Origin: Ensifer sp. LC163
GTDB lineage: Bacteria > Pseudomonadota > Alphaproteobacteria > Rhizobiales > Rhizobiaceae
DNA: 64,000 nucleotides
Assembly (NCBI RefSeq): GCF_001695855.1
Contig: NZ_MBSS01000012.1
Location: 310,001 to 374,000, forward strand
Direction of reading: 5' to 3'
Within the stretch, counting starts at the first letter, position 1, and every line of letters begins with the position of its first letter. The translations under genes and the position numbers were made by a program. This document shows, piece after piece, positions 3,074 to 30,571 of this stretch. The notes beneath the pieces are model-generated. The model ran no database searches. It worked only from the letters and a program-made list of their open reading frames with translations, and was not told where the DNA came from.

Positions 3074-4609
3074 TCAATCAGTTACAGGCGTCACCTCGGT
3101 CGGGAATATCTCAGTTATCGATTTTGCCGCGGGCAGCTTCTCATTGAATATTTCAATGATTTCAGATTCTCGCCGTCCGTACCAAGGCGCCATAATTGAA
3201 ATGAATGGGCGAGCCTCGCCCTTGTGGTAAGGTTCAAATTCACCACCGCTCTTTCGCTTCTTGCGGTAGAAGAATTCGCGATAGCGGCGTGGTGTGATGC
3301 CAAAAAATGGAACAAACTCAACAGCAGGGTACGTGGAATATTTGCCGCGGGAGGTGCCCTCAATGCTTACAGCGTCAGAATGAAGATCCGATGTTAGGCT
3401 CTTGGGATAAGGCTCTAGGAAAACGAGCTTCCGCAGCCCACTCGCGACAATGTGTTTTGAACACATATGGCAGGGAAAAGTCGTGCAATACAAAGTCCCC
3501 CCCGCCACACTTATCCCCAATCTAGCGGCATCGCTTAGCGCTGACATCTCTGCATGCACTATTCTGCCGTACTCAAGCGCATCCATGAACTGACTGGCGT
3601 CTAGCTGCTTTTTCGTATCGGGCTTGAGCTCGAATTCTTTCCCTAAAACGATCTCAAGCACCTCATTCAACAGCTCCGTTTTTCGAGCGTCGTTACTGTC
3701 GCTTCCTAATTTGAACTCGCGGGCATCGAATGGATCGTCACACCAGTATGTACCGCCACCGGCTTTTGGAACTTCGTTTGCACCTAAGCTGGCGACTTCC
3801 CCGCTCGCACGAAAAATCGCGGCTCCAACCTGACGGGATAGGTCTAGACTTCGAAGCGCTGCAGAGTGAGCGAGGTACATGCCGTATTCTAGGCGGTTGG
3901 GCGAATACCCATTGTTCTGAAAGAGAAGCTCCACAAATCTCTCAACCTGCAGAGGCACGTTGTTCAGGTCATCAAAGATATCAGCATTGATGACTACGTC
4001 GGCAAGCTGGAATATTTTCCCGACTTTTTGACCGTGCTGAACTGCTAGCTCGTCCTCGTCGATAACGACGAGTTTCTCCGCCCTATCCCTGTAGGAGTTC
4101 TTGTCTCGTTTTTTTTCATCGCGTGCCATGACTTGCGATAAGTGATCGACCCGAATGTCCCGCGCGGAGTAAATAGACAGCTGCAGGAAGCAGGCACCGT
4201 AAACTTCGCGGAGCAGCTCAAGCTCATCCTCGGTCTTCAACTGGTCGACAATATATGCCTTCTGGGAAAATTGCTGATCGCCAGATTGACGGAAAAACGC
4301 AATCTCAGAAATGGCTAGCGCAGCCAGAAAAGCGTTTCCAAACGTTTTCCTAAGATAGTCACCGAAGCTGATGTATGTGCTCACTCGATCGAAACGAGAA
4401 GCAGATCTAAGGCCGGAATATTGGAGCCGTCGAGCGAGTTCCTGGAACCGATCTGAAATCTTTATATGGCAGACATCGTAGCCTTTTGCAGTCAGCTGGC
4501 CTTTCAGCTCTGCAATGGTTGCAGCAATATTTGTGCCCACCGGTGACACAATCCCAAAGACAATTTCTGGATATTTAATTTCAGTACGCGGAAACGAGTG
4601 GGTGGTCAT
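3074..4609 (-). CDS. avcD: AvcD-like anti-phage deoxycytidylate deaminase (P-loop-like plus CDA domains)
   Basis: The protein has 511 aa in two parts. Residues ~15-235 form a nucleotide-kinase-like domain that opens with GIVSPVGTNIA (19-29), the modified P-loop typical of AvcD/DcdV proteins. Residues ~245-420 are a zinc-dependent deaminase with HAE at 352-354 and PCHMC at 379-383. Known members deaminate dCMP/dCTP during infection, draining the dCTP pool and blocking phage replication; in Vibrio and E. coli an upstream RNA, AvcI, holds the enzyme inactive. The length and domain order fit the family. The gene is monocistronic, converges on the acyltransferase terminator and diverges from a small ORF at 4,682. 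The start is the first ATG; its ribosome-binding site is weak. It probably protects the lysogen from other phages. Confidence 0.85.
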   Translation of the reverse strand: MTTHSFPRTEIKYPEIVFGIVSPVGTNIAATIAELKGQLTAKGYDVCHIKISDRFQELARRLQYSGLRSASRFDRVSTYISFGDYLRKTFGNAFLAALAISEIAFFRQSGDQQFSQKAYIVDQLKTEDELELLREVYGACFLQLSIYSARDIRVDHLSQVMARDEKKRDKNSYRDRAEKLVVIDEDELAVQHGQKVGKIFQLADVVINADIFDDLNNVPLQVERFVELLFQNNGYSPNRLEYGMYLAHSAALRSLDLSRQVGAAIFRASGEVASLGANEVPKAGGGTYWCDDPFDAREFKLGSDSNDARKTELLNEVLEIVLGKEFELKPDTKKQLDASQFMDALEYGRIVHAEMSALSDAARLGISVAGGTLYCTTFPCHMCSKHIVASGLRKLVFLEPYPKSLTSDLHSDAVSIEGTSRGKYSTYPAVEFVPFFGITPRRYREFFYRKKRKSGGEFEPYHKGEARPFISIMAPWYGRRESEIIEIFNEKLPAAKSITEIFPTEVTPVTD

Positions 4610-6357: not shown

Positions 6358-6837
6358 TTAGAGATTGACCGCAGCGAGCCACATGGCGTCGATCTGGGTA
6401 TCATTCAGGCCGAGCGCGGCGCCAACGGTCGCGATCAGCGGGTGCATGCGATTGAAGGTCGTCGCATATTCCCATTCGATTTTGGCGGTCTCTTTCGCTG
6501 TACCATCGGGCATGGTGTCGATCGCCTGTGTCACCTGTGCTGGCGCGTATCCGCCGGCGACCAGGCCGAGGCGGAATTGCCTTGCCGTGAGCGACGGCAT
6601 GTGCTTACGAATTTCTTCGGGGGTTGGTGGGGTGTAAGGCCCGATAGGAAAGCTGGGGTTATCAGCCAACCACTGCCGAATGGTCGGGTTCAGTCCAAAA
6701 TCGTCGTCCGGCCGTGAGTAGTATTCACAGTCATACCTGTCGCCGTGCATATCAGTGATGTTGCAAGTCACCATGTAAACACCCTGCTCGGGTGTCGCGG
6801 TGACGCTGTGAATTTCATTGAGTGCAAGTGTCATCAT
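6358..6837 (-). CDS. Tail fibre assembly protein-like
   Basis: The protein has 159 aa and starts on an ATGA overlap with the tail-fibre stop. The C-terminal half (EEIRKHMPSLTARQFRLGL through the final DAMWLAA) resembles the C-terminal helical domain common in rhizobial phage proteins encoded beside fibres. The N-terminal half is probably beta-rich. By position it is a fibre chaperone or fibre-tip attachment protein. Confidence 0.6.
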   Translation of the reverse strand: MMTLALNEIHSVTATPEQGVYMVTCNITDMHGDRYDCEYYSRPDDDFGLNPTIRQWLADNPSFPIGPYTPPTPEEIRKHMPSLTARQFRLGLVAGGYAPAQVTQAIDTMPDGTAKETAKIEWEYATTFNRMHPLIATVGAALGLNDTQIDAMWLAAVNL

Positions 6838-8225
6838 GCTGTCCTCTGCATCAAGGCGTAGTTTCCACTTTCTGTGCCCCGTGTACGCCATGTGCCAGCC
6901 AAAGCAGCGCCACTAGCATAGTTCAGATATTGCCAGTTTGATCCACTATCGATCCATACACCCTGTGCGACGTTACGCGCACCCGCAGCGGCGTTCGACC
7001 ACGCCAACACAAGATGCCCGATCGGGAAGTTGGTCTCCGCCGCGTTGCTGCCGGTGTAGACCTGCGCGAATGCGCTGGCGTGATAACCATCAACCGTATC
7101 GGCGTTGCCCGCGCCAGTTGCGTAGTTCACGTTGAAGTTGGATGGGTTGTAGACGTACATATTGACGCCGTCGTTCCCGCCCCAGAGCCAAGACGGCTGA
7201 CCGCCTTGACCGGACCAGTTCATGTTGAGATCACCCCCGCCAACCCGACGCGGATACGCCCGCCCATCGGTAGTGATCTTGCTGTTGAGAACGTTACTGA
7301 GATAGTTCCCAGCCCAAGGCATGTAGACGTTGCCGTCACCTTGGTAGATGGCGCCGCCAGTGATGGTTAGATTGCCGCCGATACCGAGACCGGCCGCCGG
7401 CATGCTGTAATTGGCACCGTCGTAGTGTAGATACCGCGAGCCCCCTCCAAGGAAAATGACGCCCGTCCCGTTCCCACGGCTGGCGGTGACGTCTCCTGTT
7501 GTCAATCCTGTGCTTGCAATCGGGCCAGCGACATCAAGCAAGCCATCGCTTTCTCTGAAAGTCACCGCCCTGACGAACGCCCCGGAGGAATTGTAGAGAT
7601 TGAGCCTTAGGGAGTTGTCGGTCACCTCGTTGTAGAGGAGCGCTCTATTTGTGCCGGCGGCGTTTCTAAACCAGATGTGCTTGTTGGAGTTATTATTGAA
7701 GACCAATTCTTGTCCTGAAGTCACGTAGCTTCCAGAAAGCTCAATTCTAGTCCCGACAACGGTCCCCGTGAACGTCTTCGCCGTCTGCGTCGTTGGCAAG
7801 CGAGCGTCCGCGATCGTACCTGTTGTCAGGTTGGTCGCGTTGTTCGCTCCGAGCGTCGCACGTGCCGCTGCCGCGTCCACGTCATCCAGCAGCGTTCGAG
7901 CAAATGGCGTCAGTGCGGTTGTGGCGTACACGTCCAACGCGGTCGTGTAGATAATCTGGTCAGCGACGGTCACCAGACCGGCGATCGACTGCAGGCCAGC
8001 GTCGTAAGCCTGGACATTGGTACCGACTTCGACGCCGAGCGCGGTTCGGGCGCCACTCGCCGACGTCGCACCGGTACCACCTGCCGTGACAGGACGGGCC
8101 GCATTGGCATCGGCCGCCAGATCGTCGATCAGTGTGTTGTAAGGCACGCTCTGGATTGTCGTATTCGGCACGCCTTTCGTGCCGGCCGGAGGGGTGTAGA
8201 CACCGCCAGTTCTGGGCATGGGCAT
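6834..8225 (-). CDS. Tail fibre / receptor-binding protein
   Basis: The protein has 463 aa. Gly/Ala/Thr-rich fibre repeats (ARPVTAGGTGATSASGARTALG and similar) occupy residues ~40-150, beta-rich distal repeats follow, and the C-terminus is a tip domain (FPIGHLVLAWSNAAAGARN...TWRTRGTESGNYALMQRTA) like those of phage fibre tips. The first ATG has GGAGAA immediately upstream; an ATG two codons on has better spacing. A terminator precedes the gene, so it needs its own promoter or readthrough. It probably determines host range. Confidence 0.8.
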   Translation of the reverse strand: MPMPRTGGVYTPPAGTKGVPNTTIQSVPYNTLIDDLAADANAARPVTAGGTGATSASGARTALGVEVGTNVQAYDAGLQSIAGLVTVADQIIYTTALDVYATTALTPFARTLLDDVDAAAARATLGANNATNLTTGTIADARLPTTQTAKTFTGTVVGTRIELSGSYVTSGQELVFNNNSNKHIWFRNAAGTNRALLYNEVTDNSLRLNLYNSSGAFVRAVTFRESDGLLDVAGPIASTGLTTGDVTASRGNGTGVIFLGGGSRYLHYDGANYSMPAAGLGIGGNLTITGGAIYQGDGNVYMPWAGNYLSNVLNSKITTDGRAYPRRVGGGDLNMNWSGQGGQPSWLWGGNDGVNMYVYNPSNFNVNYATGAGNADTVDGYHASAFAQVYTGSNAAETNFPIGHLVLAWSNAAAGARNVAQGVWIDSGSNWQYLNYASGAALAGTWRTRGTESGNYALMQRTA

Positions 8226-8233
8226 TTCTCCAT

Positions 8234-8265
8234 AGAAAAAGGCCCGGGCGATGAGCCCAGGCCTT
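8234..8265 (-). terminator. Rho-independent terminator upstream of the tail fibre gene
   Basis: Leftward stem AAGGCCTGGGC/GCCCGGGCCTT (one mismatch pair) is followed by TTTTTC on the minus strand. It ends the cassette containing the Ntn hydrolase gene and uncouples it from the fibre gene. Confidence 0.8.
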
Positions 8266-8290: not shown

Positions 8291-8485
8291 TTAGGAGGCG
8301 CGAGAAAGCGCCCGCTCTATGTCCTTGTCACTCGCATGATTGATTGTTTGGATGAACTCACGATACCGAGCTCGGCTTTCGCGAATGATCAGATCCCGAT
8401 CAGCCTGTTCCGGACGTTGAGCAGCGGTGGTCTTAGCAGTCTCACCATCCTTTGCAGGCCGTGTTGCTGTAGTCTGCCAACTCAT
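8291..8485 (-). CDS. Small helical protein, 64 aa
   Basis: The ATG has GGGAGAG six bases upstream and lies 18 bases after the Ntn hydrolase stop, so the two are probably co-transcribed. The product is charged, with a polar N-terminus rich in Thr, Ala, Lys and Gln and a C-terminal helix (RARYREFIQTINHASDKDIERAL). I recognise no family. It could be a partner of the hydrolase. Confidence 0.55.
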   Translation of the reverse strand: MSWQTTATRPAKDGETAKTTAAQRPEQADRDLIIRESRARYREFIQTINHASDKDIERALSRAS

Positions 8486-8503
8486 TGCACTCTCCCAAGT
8501 CTG

Positions 8504-9769
8504 CTACGAATGCTTTGCTGCTTGGCGCAGCGTAAACCTTGAATTGATGTCTGAGTTGAAGAAATGCTTCCGTTTAACCCAGACCAAACCCTCGTGCTTG
8601 GTGATGATGGCCACATCCACCGGGCCGCCGACTGTGGCCGACGGCTTCGTCACCTTCTCTTTCAACGATTGAAGAGTGATTAAGGTTTCCGCCAACTCGG
8701 CCATTTCGTCTACCGGCAACACGCTCAAGACACTTCGGAGCGGCAAAGAATGCTCTTTCCACGCTTTGTCAAGCACCGCATCTCCGATATTACTCGTCGC
8801 AGCTTGCATCAGGCCTTCTAGATCGTCAATTGCGTCAATTTTTCCGCCGCTTTTGTCGGCCACTTGGTGAGCAAATTCCGCGAGGTTCTCCGTCACTGTT
8901 ACCATCAATTGACCATACATCGGAACACTGAGGCCGAGATTGAACGTGTCGGTCATCTCAGTTTGTGCGAAAGCTGACAGCCATGCTGGGTTGTCATGAT
9001 CCAGGCGCTTGTCCGTTTTGCGGAGATGCAGGTGCTTCCCTCCGACTACTCCGCAAGACACATACTCGACCATCGACGGGAATATCTCATGGTCACCAAA
9101 TCCCGTTATGACCAGCCCAGTCGTACCCAGATTATCCTCTGGATGCTTCAAAATCTGCAAGAACGCGGTTTCCACTGCATGGGCCAAGTCTGATGGGGGC
9201 TCACACTGCATATATTCAGCGAACTCAGCGATCGTCTGAAGAATCGCTTCGCGATAATCGGCGACAATCTTGTCGACCAATTCTTGCTTCAAGCAGGGCG
9301 CTAACGGCACATCAACTAGTTCTGCGCGCTGCGCTTCGATCAGCGCATCAAGCCGCTCGCGTTGCAGGCCGTCTTCATCGTCAGATTTCGAAGCTGCCAT
9401 CCAACCGAAAATTTGGGCGCGAACGGGCCGGAGCAATTGGTCGGCTTGCACGCTCTCCGGAAAAAACCGCGGGTTGTCATCCAGGAACGAAAACAATTCC
9501 TCGGCATACTCTTCCACCGTGTTGAACGGCTTTTTGTCGAGATGCGTGCGGAAGCATTTCACGACGGTTTCCCACGGCACCTGAAGGATGTCGGCTGAAT
9601 CGAAAATCATCAGGCCAACCGGATGATGGTCGGAAAGCTGGAAAATCTTATTGGCGCCCTTAAAGTACCGCTCTTCCTTCTTTCCATCGACCCAGCGCGA
9701 AACCGTAGTCGCTGAATCCGCTGCCAGCACCACGGCCAAGCGGTTCATCATGCACACTTCAGCCGTCAT
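8504..9769 (-). CDS. HslV/proteasome-like Ntn-hydrolase, uncharacterised, 421 aa
   Basis: The start is fixed by AGGGGGAG just upstream of the ATG at 9,769, which makes Thr the second codon. After Met removal Thr1 would be the nucleophile. Counting from it, Asp17 falls in VVLAADSATT and Lys40 in YFKGANKIF, matching the HslV pattern (Thr1, Asp17, Lys33 in KGNVKK). HPVGLMIFDSADILQVPWE follows where HslV has its glycine-rich strand, and a second core block (TGLVITGFGDHEIFPSM) lies near residues 220-240. The chain is more than twice as long as HslV, with a helical insertion at residues ~90-215 and a C-terminal helical extension. It has no signal peptide. It lies on the late strand but in an accessory cassette ended by its own terminator. 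The fold is inferred; the function is unknown. Confidence 0.7.
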   Translation of the reverse strand: MTAEVCMMNRLAVVLAADSATTVSRWVDGKKEERYFKGANKIFQLSDHHPVGLMIFDSADILQVPWETVVKCFRTHLDKKPFNTVEEYAEELFSFLDDNPRFFPESVQADQLLRPVRAQIFGWMAASKSDDEDGLQRERLDALIEAQRAELVDVPLAPCLKQELVDKIVADYREAILQTIAEFAEYMQCEPPSDLAHAVETAFLQILKHPEDNLGTTGLVITGFGDHEIFPSMVEYVSCGVVGGKHLHLRKTDKRLDHDNPAWLSAFAQTEMTDTFNLGLSVPMYGQLMVTVTENLAEFAHQVADKSGGKIDAIDDLEGLMQAATSNIGDAVLDKAWKEHSLPLRSVLSVLPVDEMAELAETLITLQSLKEKVTKPSATVGGPVDVAIITKHEGLVWVKRKHFFNSDINSRFTLRQAAKHS

Positions 9770-9898
9770 TTGCTCCCCCTTGCAATTACAAGATGAGAGC
9801 ATGATTCGCCTCGAACGCCCAGACCGCCCGCTATCCGGGAGCTTGCATGTTCACCGAGATTTCGCTTTCATGCACGCATTCAACGAGGGGTGGTTTCG

Positions 9899-10039
9899 GT
9901 GGAACTCGACGAAGAGATTGAGCGCGGCGTTCGGCGGTTCATGGCCGAATATGGCGTCAGCCGCGAGGAGGCAATCAAGCGCATCCTTCGCGACTGGCTG
10001 ATCGGCAACCGCTATCTGGCTTTTGTCGACGAGGATTGA
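9899..10039 (+). CDS. Ribbon-helix-helix-like small protein, 46 aa
   Basis: It has a GTG start with GAGGGG about 8 bases upstream (another in-frame GTG at 9,890). The sequence pattern VELDEEIERGVRRFMAEYG, then SREEAIKRILRDWL, fits a short beta strand plus two helices, as in Arc/MetJ/CopG DNA-binding proteins. It is transcribed away from the Ntn hydrolase gene and may control this cassette. Confidence 0.55.
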   Translation: MELDEEIERGVRRFMAEYGVSREEAIKRILRDWLIGNRYLAFVDED

Positions 10040-10069
10040 GCAAAACCCGTTCTCGTGTATGTTGCTGCG

Positions 10070-10312
10070 ATGCAGATTGATCACGACCCAGACGAGCCGA
10101 AGATTGACCGCGGGCCGGGCCCTTGGCGCTGGGTGTTTCCGATACTTGCAGTCGGCTGGGCGGGCTATCTGCACGCCTTCACCTTCGATTGGACGTCGAT
10201 AGCCCTAGGCGCGGGAACCGGCGCAGTTATTATGGCATGGGCGATCGAGATCACTGGCAACAAGGTGCCTGAATCATGGCGCACCAAACCGCCCGGCTCC
10301 GGCCGCCTCTGA
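10070..10312 (+). CDS. Small membrane protein, 80 aa
   Basis: The polar N-terminus is followed by two hydrophobic segments (WVFPILAVGWAGYLHAF and IALGAGTGAVIMAWAIEI) and a basic tail. An upstream in-frame GTG at 10,055 would add five residues. The last 39 bases overlap the end of the convergent ejection-protein gene. It follows the ribbon-helix-helix gene by 30 bases and is probably co-transcribed with it. Confidence 0.55.
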   Translation: MQIDHDPDEPKIDRGPGPWRWVFPILAVGWAGYLHAFTFDWTSIALGAGTGAVIMAWAIEITGNKVPESWRTKPPGSGRL

Positions 10313-12253
10313 ACTGATCATCGAAGCGATCAAGCGGGCTCGCATCTGGTCGGCCCGCGACAACCGGCTGAGACCGCCGCTCAGTAGCTGCCGCGCAACT
10401 TCCGGCCTCGTCTCCATCAGAACCTGAGAAACCTGCTCGATGACGCGCGGTGGCATGCCTTGCGCTTCGCCGAGCAACCGGCGTCCGCCTTCCATGATCG
10501 CCCCTGGGACATCGCCACGAAACAGCTTTGACATAAGGCCCGGGTCAAATTTCGACATCTCTGCCGCGTCCGCGAGGTTGTCGGCCGTTCGCGACCCCCC
10601 GAGTGCCTGATTGGCGGTTTCGAACATGCGCTGTTCCCGCATGATTCGAGCGGCGAGCTGATCTGCGCGCCCAGGCCCAGCGAAGGCCGGAAACTCCGCG
10701 CCTGTCTTTGGCGTGACCAAGCCGCGCGCCTTGTTCGTGGTCGGCGACATCGAGGCGTTTTCGACCCGGGCGATCAGCGGGTCGACATAGCCCGCCCGGA
10801 ATCCTGATTGTTCTTCACCGGACATGCGATTGAAGGCCGGCACCGTATCATCGGCGCGCATGCGGCCAGACGCGGCGTTGCGGCCGGCATCGACTGCGTC
10901 GATAGCGCGGCTCTGCTGACGGAAGGTGTCGTTCGCCGCCCGGTACCCGGAGGACGAGTTCTCAAGCGCTTGGTCGAGCGCATTGTAAACGCCGCGCATG
11001 TCGTTTGCGACCTGCGGGTTCCGCTGCATCTGTTGGAACAGATCCGACTTGATGTTTAGGACCCGGTCAAAATCGACGAGCTGCTCGCCATCACGCTGCA
11101 GCTGGTCTCGAAGAGCCTGCAGACGCGGCCCGAGCGGCCCAACGCTTAGCGCGGTGTCTCCGAGAATCGGGTCGCGGCCGAGCAGGTTGTCGATTTCGTC
11201 GATCGCACCGTTGAGGTTGACAGCCCCCGCACCCTCTCTGGCCGCCGTATAGTTGGTGTTTCCTGTGGCAGTCCGCTGCGCAGTGAGTAATGCTGCCCGC
11301 TGCGCGGCGGTATCCGGTGCATCGAAGCCGTGGGCGAGGAAGTTCGACAGTCGATCGCCTTGCCCCGCTTGGCGCGCCTGCAGGGTCTCAACGACGGCCT
11401 GTCGTTCGTTGTTCGGCGTGCGCGCGACCGTCGACAGCATGCGCTGACCTGAGTTGCCCATGGCGTCCGCAACAGCATACATGCCCTGATCGTCAGCCTG
11501 CGAGCGGCCGAGCGCCGCGGCGATATCATCGACCGTCATGCCCGATCTACGCACGCCTTCGCCGATGGCTCGCTCGGCATATCGCTCTGGGAAAACACGC
11601 GCCATGAGCGGCGCCGCGAAGGGGGAAGCGACGCGCGAAACACCAGCAACGGCGGCCGGCGTCAGAGCACCGAGCGCAAGGCCCGTCGCAAGCCCGGTAA
11701 CACCCGACTTTACCCGACCCTCTGCGCCCTCACCGCTTCCAACGCCATGCAGGCCGCCCAGTACAGCGCCCTCGCCCGCAGAGGCAAGCGATACCCGGCC
11801 AAGCCCCGCCCCGCTATTGATCGCGTTCGCCGTCGGCGAGAGGCCACCCCGCATAAGCCTTGACCCCATCCAGAGGGCACCCGTAAGGTTGCCGGCAAGG
11901 TTTGCGCCAGGATTTTCCGCCGCAACAGCTTTGTCCTCGCCCCGAACCTCTTTCAGCGCCTCATTATAGGTGACGTCCGACTGCCACGGCAGCAGTTTGC
12001 CGCCGAGCCAGCGAGCGCCGGCTCCGACTTCATCCGCGAAACCAAACGAGGCCGTGTTCGCGATACCACGGCCGTAGGCATCGACGGCCCCGGTGACGCC
12101 ACCGTAAGCCGGTGAAGACGCCGATTGTGTCAACTCAGAAAGAGCCTGCCGCCCGTCAATCGACTGCTGGCTCTCCGGCGTGTTGTTCGCTTCAGCTTCG
12201 CGACGACGACGCGCGCGTGCAATGGCAAGCGCTTTCTGCTGTTCTGGTGTCAT
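10274..12253 (-). CDS. Internal virion / DNA ejection protein, 659 aa
   Basis: It is a large, Ala/Gly/Arg-rich protein without Cys. It has a charged helical N-terminus (MTPEQQKALAIARARRRREAE), several weakly hydrophobic glycine-rich stretches at residues ~90-220 that could insert in membranes, and a helical C-terminal half. It starts four bases before the upstream lysozyme gene ends. Size, composition and position before the fibre fit the ejection proteins that form a conduit for DNA in short-tailed phages. Confidence 0.65.
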   Translation of the reverse strand: MTPEQQKALAIARARRRREAEANNTPESQQSIDGRQALSELTQSASSPAYGGVTGAVDAYGRGIANTASFGFADEVGAGARWLGGKLLPWQSDVTYNEALKEVRGEDKAVAAENPGANLAGNLTGALWMGSRLMRGGLSPTANAINSGAGLGRVSLASAGEGAVLGGLHGVGSGEGAEGRVKSGVTGLATGLALGALTPAAVAGVSRVASPFAAPLMARVFPERYAERAIGEGVRRSGMTVDDIAAALGRSQADDQGMYAVADAMGNSGQRMLSTVARTPNNERQAVVETLQARQAGQGDRLSNFLAHGFDAPDTAAQRAALLTAQRTATGNTNYTAAREGAGAVNLNGAIDEIDNLLGRDPILGDTALSVGPLGPRLQALRDQLQRDGEQLVDFDRVLNIKSDLFQQMQRNPQVANDMRGVYNALDQALENSSSGYRAANDTFRQQSRAIDAVDAGRNAASGRMRADDTVPAFNRMSGEEQSGFRAGYVDPLIARVENASMSPTTNKARGLVTPKTGAEFPAFAGPGRADQLAARIMREQRMFETANQALGGSRTADNLADAAEMSKFDPGLMSKLFRGDVPGAIMEGGRRLLGEAQGMPPRVIEQVSQVLMETRPEVARQLLSGGLSRLSRADQMRARLIASMISSEAAGAGRFGAP

Positions 12254-29068: not shown

Positions 29069-29559
29069 ACGCCGCTCCATTCGGAAATGAGCCGTGCGCC
29101 CTTGCTGAGATTGCAATCGCGACATGCCACTGTGAGGTTTTCCGGGTCATTGCTGCCGCCCAGAGCGACAGGAAGGATGTGGTCGACGTGAAACGGGCCT
29201 TCGGTCGTGCCGCAATAGCGGCATCTCTCGCCGTCACGCTCGAAGATGGCGGCTTTCGCGCTCTGCGACATCGAGATGCGTGACGTAAGGCCATACCCTC
29301 GCCGGTCGATCTTCCCATGGGTGATTTCATCGGCCGCGACGTCGAAGAAGGCCAGCAGATCATCCTTGATCGCAAGCCACTTCTTGACGCTCATCCGCAC
29401 CACGCGGGCCAGCTTCGCATCATCGTTCGGCAGCCTGCCCCCGGCATTCCACATAGCCATCAGCAGCAGCATGTAAGCCCCGATCTGCTCGGTGCTCAAA
29501 TGCAGGGTGTCGCCGATGAAATCGGAGACGTACAGCTGCATGAAGGGGCGTTCGCTCAC
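29065..29559 (-). CDS. DUF1376 domain fused to HNH endonuclease
   Basis: The protein has 164 aa. Residues ~1-90 repeat the DUF1376 fold (FMQLYVSDFIGDTLHLSTEQIGAYMLLLMAMW). The C-terminus is an HNH nuclease: CRYCG, HVDHILPVALGGSNDPENL, CRDCN, with paired zinc cysteines. The GTG start overlaps the upstream TGA. The two adjacent DUF1376 genes look like a duplication with one copy acquiring a nuclease. Confidence 0.8.
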   Translation of the reverse strand: MSERPFMQLYVSDFIGDTLHLSTEQIGAYMLLLMAMWNAGGRLPNDDAKLARVVRMSVKKWLAIKDDLLAFFDVAADEITHGKIDRRGYGLTSRISMSQSAKAAIFERDGERCRYCGTTEGPFHVDHILPVALGGSNDPENLTVACRDCNLSKGARLISEWSGV

Positions 29560-30389
29560 TCTGCCGCCTCCGCTGCGCAAAGAAGGCCGCATTCGGCGTC
29601 ATGTTCCTCTTCGAACACCGGGTCGAAAAGATCTGGCGCCCGCCTAATTTCACCGACCAGGTCAGCGATCATGTCGCGCCGATCGAAGGAACCGCCGGTC
29701 AAATCCTCCTGTTCAGCCCACCAGTTAGCGCGGGCGGGGTTTTGCCGAATGATGCGCTTGCGAATGCCTCTGCCTTTCATGAAACAGAGGTCACAGTTCC
29801 CTTCCCATGGCTGCAGCTTCAGGTCGAAGGGCTGCCGCGACCAGAAAGTCATGATGTCGGCCTTGCATACTTTCGCCCTGGCGAGAGGATAGACGACACG
29901 ACGCCCCGTCTTTTCCGCATCCTCAAGCCCGCGGAAAATTCTCATGCCTTCGTCATCGCGCAGTCCGATGATCTCGCTGTATTGTCCAGGAGCAAAGCCG
30001 AGATGCTCGGCGAGAGCTTGCAAGGGTGTCACTTTGAGATACTGGCTGCACCAGCGCTCTTGCCAGTTTGGGAGACGCTTCTTTTTCCTGATCAAAGCCG
30101 AGAATGGCTCACCCTTTCGAGCGGCGCTGTTATAGCCGACGCGCTCGAACCCTTCCGCCGCGTCACGGAACTCCACCCAATATATTGGGACATCCCAGCG
30201 GGACTCGCACTCGTGAACGAAGCGCAATGTCTCTTCGCGCTCCCTGCCGGTGTTGGCAAACGCCACAACGACATCGGCTGGAAGCGCGCCATTGTGCGCT
30301 TCAAGGATCTTGTGAAGCATGTAGGCCGAGGTACGACCGCCCGAGAAGGAAATCAGCGCTGGGCCGATGATGAAGTATGAACTGGTCAC
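29556..30389 (-). CDS. PP-loop ATPase of the PAPS-reductase/adenylyltransferase superfamily
   Basis: The protein has 277 aa from GTG (GTGA overlap). The PP-loop is ISFSGGRTSAYM near residues 14-25, followed by VVVAFANTGREREETLRFVHECESRW. A later GNCDLCFMKGR block holds two cysteines. Such phage proteins are annotated as phosphoadenosine phosphosulfate reductases. Their substrate is usually unknown, and thiolation or nucleotide modification is possible. It sits among replication genes. Confidence 0.75.
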   Translation of the reverse strand: MTSSYFIIGPALISFSGGRTSAYMLHKILEAHNGALPADVVVAFANTGREREETLRFVHECESRWDVPIYWVEFRDAAEGFERVGYNSAARKGEPFSALIRKKKRLPNWQERWCSQYLKVTPLQALAEHLGFAPGQYSEIIGLRDDEGMRIFRGLEDAEKTGRRVVYPLARAKVCKADIMTFWSRQPFDLKLQPWEGNCDLCFMKGRGIRKRIIRQNPARANWWAEQEDLTGGSFDRRDMIADLVGEIRRAPDLFDPVFEEEHDAECGLLCAAEAAE

Positions 30390-30571
30390 GCGTCGCCTCC
30401 CCGGGCGCGCTTGGCGTCTGCCTCGGCTGATCTCTGATAGTCCTCTCGGATGTCGCGCAGCATCTTGAGTTTGGCGCGCTGGACAGAGTTGCCACAATCG
30501 CCGATGCGGGTGCGCAGGCCTTTGATTTCACCATCGAGAAACGCGATCTTCTGTGGGATCATAGCGACCAT
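30386..30571 (-). CDS. Small basic helical protein, 61 aa
   Basis: The sequence is helical and Lys/Arg-rich (KIAFLDGEIKGLRTRIGDCGN, then KLKMLRDIREDYQ). It ends on GTGA with the PP-loop gene. A second ATG at codon 4 is possible. No known family. Confidence 0.6.
   Translation of the reverse strand: MVAMIPQKIAFLDGEIKGLRTRIGDCGNSVQRAKLKMLRDIREDYQRSAEADAKRARGGDA

Follow-up and report, generated by a model that had tools for sequence, protein, structure and literature searches.

The locus and its genes

We analysed a stretch of 64,000 nucleotides from Ensifer sp. LC163 (the window), in which a prophage with head, scaffold, portal, terminase and integrase genes carries a hydrolase gene and a small partner gene beside its tail fibre gene. 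By computation, the hydrolase has a predicted proteasome-like fold and a conserved Thr-Asp-Lys set, and the co-encoded partner forms with it a discrete two-gene operon that is an accessory insertion in the prophage. The features of the locus are as follows.

8504..9769, minus: gene for a proteasome-like Ntn hydrolase of 421 aa that fits the PMI-4 type (from phrog_5990, predicted fold and conservation)
9773..9779, minus: ribosome-binding site GGGGGAG of the hydrolase gene (from sequence)
9764..9766, minus: codon of Thr2, Thr1 of the mature protein and predicted nucleophile (from sequence and relatives)
9716..9718, minus: codon of Asp18, the Asp17 equivalent, 108/108 (from alignment)
9647..9649, minus: codon of Lys41, the Lys33 equivalent, 108/108 (from alignment)
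8615..8617, minus: codon of Asp385 in the VGGPxDVAxI strand, 107/108, a possible and weakly supported Asp166 equivalent (from alignment)
8291..8485, minus: partner gene, 64 aa, about the first 23 residues predicted disordered and the remainder helical (from the open reading frame and relatives)
8490..8496, minus: ribosome-binding site GGGAGAG of the partner gene (from sequence)
8239..8265, minus: intrinsic-terminator-like hairpin with T-run, 3' of the partner gene (from hairpin search and family survey)
10274..12253, minus: backbone gene flanking the insertion, phrog_5880 (function unknown), an ejection protein by position only
6834..8225, minus: tail fibre gene on the other flank, its N-terminal part matching phrog_24210
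9899..10039, plus: 46-aa open reading frame divergent from the operon, which by eye we take to be ribbon-helix-helix-like; among the loci examined, only in copies of the same phage
10055..10312, plus: backbone gene whose 85-aa product has a hydrophobic segment; related phages that lack the pair have this gene too

The hydrolase frame opens with an ATG preceded by GGGGGAG, has Thr as residue 2 and Asp as residue 18 (the 17th from that Thr) and contains KGANK as residues 37-41; the ribosome-binding site and ATG directly before a Thr codon, to which the first-pass annotation of this sequence had drawn attention, are thus confirmed. On paper, an in-frame ATG upstream at 9802 would give an alternative 432-aa frame. 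We prefer the inner ATG (9769) because the relatives begin at Met-Thr, as seen in 154 of 159 hydrolase relatives extracted; the other five comprise two cut by a contig end, one apparently frameshifted and two (apparently one copy twice) without an N-terminus. Removal of Met1, which would expose Thr2, is expected from this start, and since the Thr directly follows Met1 such ordinary removal would be enough, so that the protein need not be called self-processing as it had been.

The protein matches phrog_5990 (function unknown) over its full length (E 5.8e-83). Pfam, NCBIfam and PADLOC named neither the hydrolase nor the partner and returned nothing convincing for the hydrolase, the PADLOC 2023 anti-phage models gave zero matches for either, and a PDB sequence search with the single hydrolase yielded a chance match only.

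Predicted fold and active site

The AlphaFold model of the hydrolase (pLDDT 93.6, pTM 0.89) is predicted to contain the alpha-beta-beta-alpha Ntn core. When it was compared with the PDB by Foldseek, every one of the 22 matches at E<=1e-3 was a 20S proteasome chain or Anbu (probability 0.99-1.00), with Anbu 5nyg among the top matches from rank 9, in line with the proteasome-like Ntn hydrolase originally proposed. TM scores normalised by target were 0.40-0.52 and the rmsd was large, which in the model may be put down to helical insertions. Among viral models, the best match (E 5.6e-5) was a siphovirus protein with the name proteasome beta type-2; BFVD A0A8S5LJV3 and A0A142KAQ6 are further phage proteins with a proteasome-like predicted fold, one of them uncharacterised and from a Gordonia phage. 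Reading the secondary structure of the model by eye, we located two insertions: a long one after H1/H2, made up of helices 105-213 and bounded by H85-97 and the strand at 217, and one between H3 and H4, where helices 282-307 and 317-350 separate H271-278 from H353-374.

For conservation we used an alignment (A2) of 108 rows drawn from the 154 relatives with Thr2, so that its counts for Met1 and Thr2 are true by construction, which does not apply to those for Asp18, Ser19, Lys41 and Asp385. Asp18, Ser19 and Lys41 are each present in 108/108 rows, and Asp385 in 107/108. The Asp at position 17 from the Thr, noted in the first reading, is therefore invariant in this set. The KGANK lysine had likewise been equated with Lys33, and this holds for the last Lys, K41, which aligns with Lys33 of archaeal beta, and fails for the first, K37, found in 26/108 rows. 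The GFGDHEIFPS stretch, singled out earlier as a core block, is also conserved, with G223, G225 and P231 each in 108/108.

Profile-profile comparison of the hydrolase with archaeal proteasome beta (12 rows, one perhaps an alpha subunit) gave p=6.3e-5 and placed Thr2, Asp18 and Lys41 on positions 1, 17 and 33. The corresponding hhalign values were p=0.011 for Anbu over 37 columns (5 rows), p=0.024 for alpha (10 rows) and p=0.11 for HslV (22 rows). Single-profile searches of PDB and Pfam lay at the edge of detection, with helical families above the proteasome: the 108-row profile found cullin chains best in the PDB (E 0.0035), over the helical insertion, followed by T. acidophilum beta (E 0.008) over 17 residues only, and when members were run against Pfam, DUF445 (8 members, best E 0.00025) and others outscored Proteasome (6/108, best E 0.005). 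The cullin and DUF445 matches were discounted as matches of helical composition. Two outcomes had been named beforehand as counting against the annotation, a non-Ntn fold and a lack of conservation of Thr2, Asp17 and the KGANK Lys; AlphaFold and Foldseek instead give a proteasome-like fold, and the residues are conserved (Thr2 154/159; Asp18 and K41 108/108).

Canonical beta subunits also have Ser129 and Asp166. The C-terminal parts alone gave weak alignments with archaeal beta (E 0.01-0.04), in which the PFAQ motif of the hydrolase family aligns weakly with the PFA after GSGS (E 0.04); on this alignment Ser129 would not be kept, and before PFAQ the 108-row alignment has no conserved Ser that would match it. 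Asp385 falls, weakly (p=0.011), in the Asp166 region of archaeal beta, where the reference row has His. In five Bacillaceae chromosomal copies (L040, L041, L053, L063 and L081), SVGPPIDV replaces TVGGPIDV and resembles the Anbu stretch SVGPPLDL.

Assignment to PMI-4

Fuchs, Alva and Lupas (2021; PMC8665760) described 22 new proteasome homologues, including PMI-4 (Proteasome homolog with Multiple Insertions 4). According to the available text of that paper, only PMI-3 and PMI-4 have a long insertion after H1/H2 plus an H3/H4 insertion, and PMI-4, the larger family (501 vs 28 sequences), is marked for phages while PMI-3 is not. Because our model has both insertions, and of these two families only PMI-4 is marked for phages, the hydrolase fits PMI-4, by architecture and distribution and not by direct comparison with the reference HDY66466.1. 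Its occurrence in bacteria, archaea and phages matches that given for PMI-4 (bacteria, Euryarchaeota and phages; Table 1 of PMC8665760). The earlier view that no such system had been described is thus superseded as regards the enzyme, whose family was published in 2021. The available text gives the function of PMI-4 as unknown and reports no genomic context or co-occurrence suggestive of function (PMC8665760). The family is hence already known by name and the two-gene operon is new here; among the open-access papers listed by our searches, we found no description of a two-gene PMI-4 operon.

The partner gene and the operon

In the window, 18 bases separate the hydrolase from its partner. Under relaxed criteria (an open reading frame of 35-95 aa starting within -40 to +74 bases of the hydrolase stop), a small frame lies downstream of the hydrolase in 114/114 non-redundant loci with enough sequence (39-89 aa, median 61), six of 120 loci having been omitted because a contig end was too near. 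Since 335/744 other frames of >=150 aa in the same loci also pass this test, the strict one (Shine-Dalgarno 4-mer, ATG or GTG start, 40-90 aa) is more telling, with a partner in 90/114 loci vs 45/744 controls. With redundant loci counted, the partner is present in 152/153. The sole miss, phage copy L115, is a true exception, with no small frame and a longer one that starts just before the hydrolase stop; it is not counted in the non-redundant set because that set includes L114 instead, a near twin located at a contig end. Among phage and plasmid copies with enough sequence, 10/11 have a candidate partner (one of 35 aa) and plasmid copy L013 has none, while the partner of L264, an E. coli copy, has 34 aa and so falls short of the lower size limit of our counts.

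Pooled over 23 close pairs, several of them nearly identical, the partner has pS 0.351 and pN 0.080 and the hydrolase pS 0.334 and pN 0.045, the partner values being inflated by one pair (L043/L058) that used a wrongly chosen frame. As pS is well above pN, the partner is a real gene under purifying selection that evolves faster than the hydrolase. The partners split into many sequence groups (39, 12, 10, 9 and smaller). A reciprocal search seeded with one enterobacterial partner group found PMI-4 just upstream in 15/15 loci, 8 on contigs already found via the hydrolase and 7 on new ones; PMI-4 is cut by a contig end in one of these and lies in two pieces in two. In the phage collection, neither the window's own partner type nor one enterobacterial type (the latter query being one codon off) had a match.

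A small cassette comprising the 64-aa partner and its own terminator had been proposed, and both elements are present. Taken alone, the window has hairpins at chance level (2 vs a shuffle mean of 2.4). In the family as a whole, by contrast, a terminator follows the partner much more often than expected by chance, in 51/114 loci (32/45 viral), with 0/114 at the hydrolase stop and 9/570 in random stretches. No sigma-70-like promoter for the pair was found in the window.

The motif [FY][FN]..P occurs in 41/114 partners vs a mean of 2.6 and a maximum of 8 in shuffles, the pattern having been chosen after looking; partners that are otherwise dissimilar (L040, L053, L081, L117, L121, L047 and others) have it in common, and neither the partner encoded in the window nor the alphaproteobacterial partners closely related to it have the motif. 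Judged by eye, no C-terminal residues are common to all partner types. A read-through fusion model of hydrolase and partner, whose output lacked both coordinates and pair errors, showed no indication of docking, the first 23 partner residues having a pLDDT of about 40 or less; in a trial alignment for the two proteins, the small-only rows landed on the hydrolase and were dropped.

Insertion slot and positions of other copies

Fifteen viral contigs are related to the prophage in a neighbouring gene: one is the same phage, and in the other 14, several of which end early, no copy was found. In four related phages (L246-L249), the backbone gene is followed, as in the window, by the 85-aa gene and then the tail fibre, but without the pair, and the distance from backbone gene to fibre is 619-834 bases vs 2,052 in the window. 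The pair is therefore an accessory insertion in a variable slot, which agrees with the accessory position first suggested for it. Elsewhere in the same prophage, beyond the endolysin, a 511-aa protein (3074-4609, minus) matches the PADLOC model dCTPase (anti-phage dCTP deaminase; E 5.8e-153), and a further match in the window is to the PADLOC model SspD (29556-30497, minus; E 2e-11, 42 bits).

Other copies take different places. On eight enterobacterial viral contigs and in E. coli H3, the pair adjoins Q on the opposite strand, Q being named from the E. coli annotation and, in the other contigs, by position and length. The pair of E. coli COL60J is found in the immunity region, immediately after an HTH repressor, which is where lambda has its rex genes. 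The same-strand upstream genes match HTH_3 in 5/26 cases and a CI repressor domain in 2/26 (26 scanned of the 31 found in 56 loci, five doubtful ones omitted). The copy is the last gene of one streptococcal prophage, next to last, before the partner, in two satellites, and mid-element in a third satellite.

Around chromosomal copies, no recurrent neighbour family emerged: among the matches listed (the 25 commonest families of 144 Pfam, 122 PADLOC and 83 PHROG), the commonest Pfam family was found in 2/112 neighbours and the commonest PADLOC family in 3/112, the 112 remaining from 128 extracted (>900 aa excluded) after 16 short or doubtful frames had been dropped. Some of these neighbours match defence models, again among the matches listed and in a survey without control loci, and some chromosomal copies adjoin housekeeping genes. 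The rhizobial plasmid copies L013, L014 and L015 have multiubiquitin-domain and ThiF-family genes, which form a bacterial ubiquitin-like conjugation cluster, no more than a few kb away.

Spread of the family

The distribution of the family is patchy. By tblastn, relatives of the hydrolase were found on 10 plasmids and in 13 phage records (nine Streptococcus phages or satellites, two Stenotrophomonas, one Providencia and one Porphyromonas). A scan of species genomes confirmed at least 499 relatives among 589 candidate stretches, of which the best 80 were kept (15 archaeal by title), and IMG/VR gave 176 among 190 candidates, the best 80 again being kept; because only the best matches were retained, these sets are biased towards the query. 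Among 151 relatives of the host, host included, four had a match, two full-length and two C-terminal only; in the host relatives L261 and L262, frames of 286 and 294 aa match the C-terminal GGPxDVA part only and perhaps represent another proteasome-like homologue. Complete E. coli genomes had a DNA match in 22/5,426 with one query (over part of its length) and in nine with another.

Discussion

The conserved residues suggest how the enzyme may work. Once Met1 was removed, the exposed Thr1 would attack a peptide bond with the help of Asp18 and Lys41; this is how proteasomes work, with an exposed Thr1, Asp17 and Lys33, so that hydrolysis or transfer of peptide bonds would be expected. The helical insertions (about 100-213 and 282-350) would make stacked rings of the proteasome or HslV type unlikely, and the enzyme therefore probably works on chosen substrates as a monomer or in a small assembly, be it as a peptidase or as a connectase-like ligase. 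For PMI-4, the available text of Fuchs, Alva and Lupas states that ring assembly should or could be blocked by the insertions, of which the first might instead point outwards (PMC8665760). The small fast-evolving protein, part disordered and part helical, would bind the enzyme as a dedicated inhibitor, activator or substrate; that it is encoded nearly every time would most simply make it a dedicated regulator or substrate. On balance, we favour the reading that a mobile operon, consisting of a PMI-4-type homologue and a near-obligate small partner, forms accessory cargo of the prophage beside its tail fibre gene; the enzyme would be a threonine peptidase or ligase selective for its substrates, and the small protein its dedicated regulator or substrate. 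The observation made in the first-pass annotation is confirmed, and its interpretation, which we regard as largely right, is partly supported.

In prophages and satellites, the pair would serve lysogenic conversion, its target being the host or competing phages. An anti-phage role is plausible because of the dCTP deaminase in the same prophage and the lysogen-type positions in some other phages, and we put it forward tentatively, since in the window the pair has the orientation of the late genes. With similar caution, PMI-4 and its partner might more generally constitute a two-component threonine-peptidase or ligase module that archaea, bacteria, phages and satellites have in common; the small protein would co-evolve with the proteasome-like enzyme and hold, guide or feed it, and in mobile elements the module would be an undescribed anti-phage or inter-element conflict system.

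The same near-obligate, small and fast-evolving partner, the discrete operon and the patchy occurrence in prophages, satellites and plasmids would also suit addiction or abortive infection of the toxin-antitoxin kind, where a free threonine protease would be harmful, the partner would restrain it, and loss or modification of the partner upon infection or curing would set it free. We nevertheless think this unlikely, as the partner is the second gene and some chromosomal copies stand beside housekeeping genes. There is about as little to be said for the partner as the substrate itself, cleaved or ligated by a connectase-like enzyme to yield a peptide or protein tag: one small, partly disordered protein per enzyme would be in keeping with it, as would insertions suited to selective substrates and the [FY][FN]..P pattern (41/114, chosen after looking), yet the window's partner lacks this motif, as do the alphaproteobacterial partners closely related to it, and the partner types share no C-terminal residues by eye.

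A part in host proteostasis, as an unfoldase-free peptidase that clears unstructured proteins, recalls the role proposed for uncapped 20S or BPH in the available text of PMC8665760. The spread over bacteria and archaea is compatible with it, and 12/12 genomes checked also hold PF00227 proteins above the cut-off, so that PMI-4 adds to other proteasome-like proteins and does not replace them. Within the host's phylum, which we take to be Pseudomonadota, however, just 10/398 genomes have a match, in two of these to the N-terminal part only, and a dedicated partner and phage cargo positions would be unexpected of a housekeeping enzyme, which leaves this role quite improbable. In the window, the pair forms part of the late region and is encoded on the same strand as the virion genes, which also suits late lytic expression and could point to virion maturation or another late lytic function; against this, four related phages do without the pair and several of the copies found elsewhere run antisense to late genes or are not in phages, and we give the idea very little credence. 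A catalytically dead scaffold, in keeping with the unconserved Ser129 equivalent, is scarcely credible when Thr2, Asp18 and Lys41 are kept across archaeal, bacterial and phage copies.

Should the favoured reading of a partnered, substrate-selective enzyme be correct, a regulated proteasome-like enzyme would join the few characterised beyond the canonical proteasome. PMI-4 was one of 22 new homologues in 2021 and, in the available text, came without a genomic clue (PMC8665760); the near-obligate partner offers a direct handle on its function. Moreover, prophage copies, including those of E. coli, make phage-challenge tests simple in lab strains.

Comparison with known systems

The hydrolase was judged to be neither HslV nor Anbu, and the profile values (p=0.11 and p=0.011) together with the differing sizes agree. 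With HslV it shares the Thr1-Asp17-Lys33 pattern; membership was rejected on length (421 aa vs about 175), the hhalign p=0.11 and the lack of an HslV model among the NCBIfam matches. The host carries a separate HslV-like gene elsewhere. Anbu is a top-ranking PDB match (5nyg), and its SVGPPLDL resembles the VGGPxDVA strand of the hydrolase. It differs in being a split ring of about 240 aa (PMC8665760, available text) and in its weak profile similarity, and membership was rejected on 421 aa vs about 240 and p=0.011 on 37 columns. Membership of the canonical proteasome beta subunits was also examined, and the hydrolase falls outside them: it shares with archaeal beta the fold and active-site positions 1, 17 and 33, but the latter has about 200 aa and forms stacked rings with alpha subunits, whereas the hydrolase has about 420 aa, two large helical insertions and no conserved Ser129 equivalent.

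Connectase is, like the hydrolase, a proteasome-like protein with helical insertions and works outside rings; it has no H1/H2 and carries its insertion between S3 and S4 (PMC8665760, available text), whereas the hydrolase keeps H1/H2. The closest likeness in kind is to PMI-4 itself, in the proteasome-like core, Thr1/Asp17/Lys33, the lack of a propeptide, both insertions and the occurrence in bacteria, Euryarchaeota and phages (PMC8665760, available text). To these features, the present analysis adds the small partner gene, the terminator and the cargo positions, which are absent from the available text of that paper.
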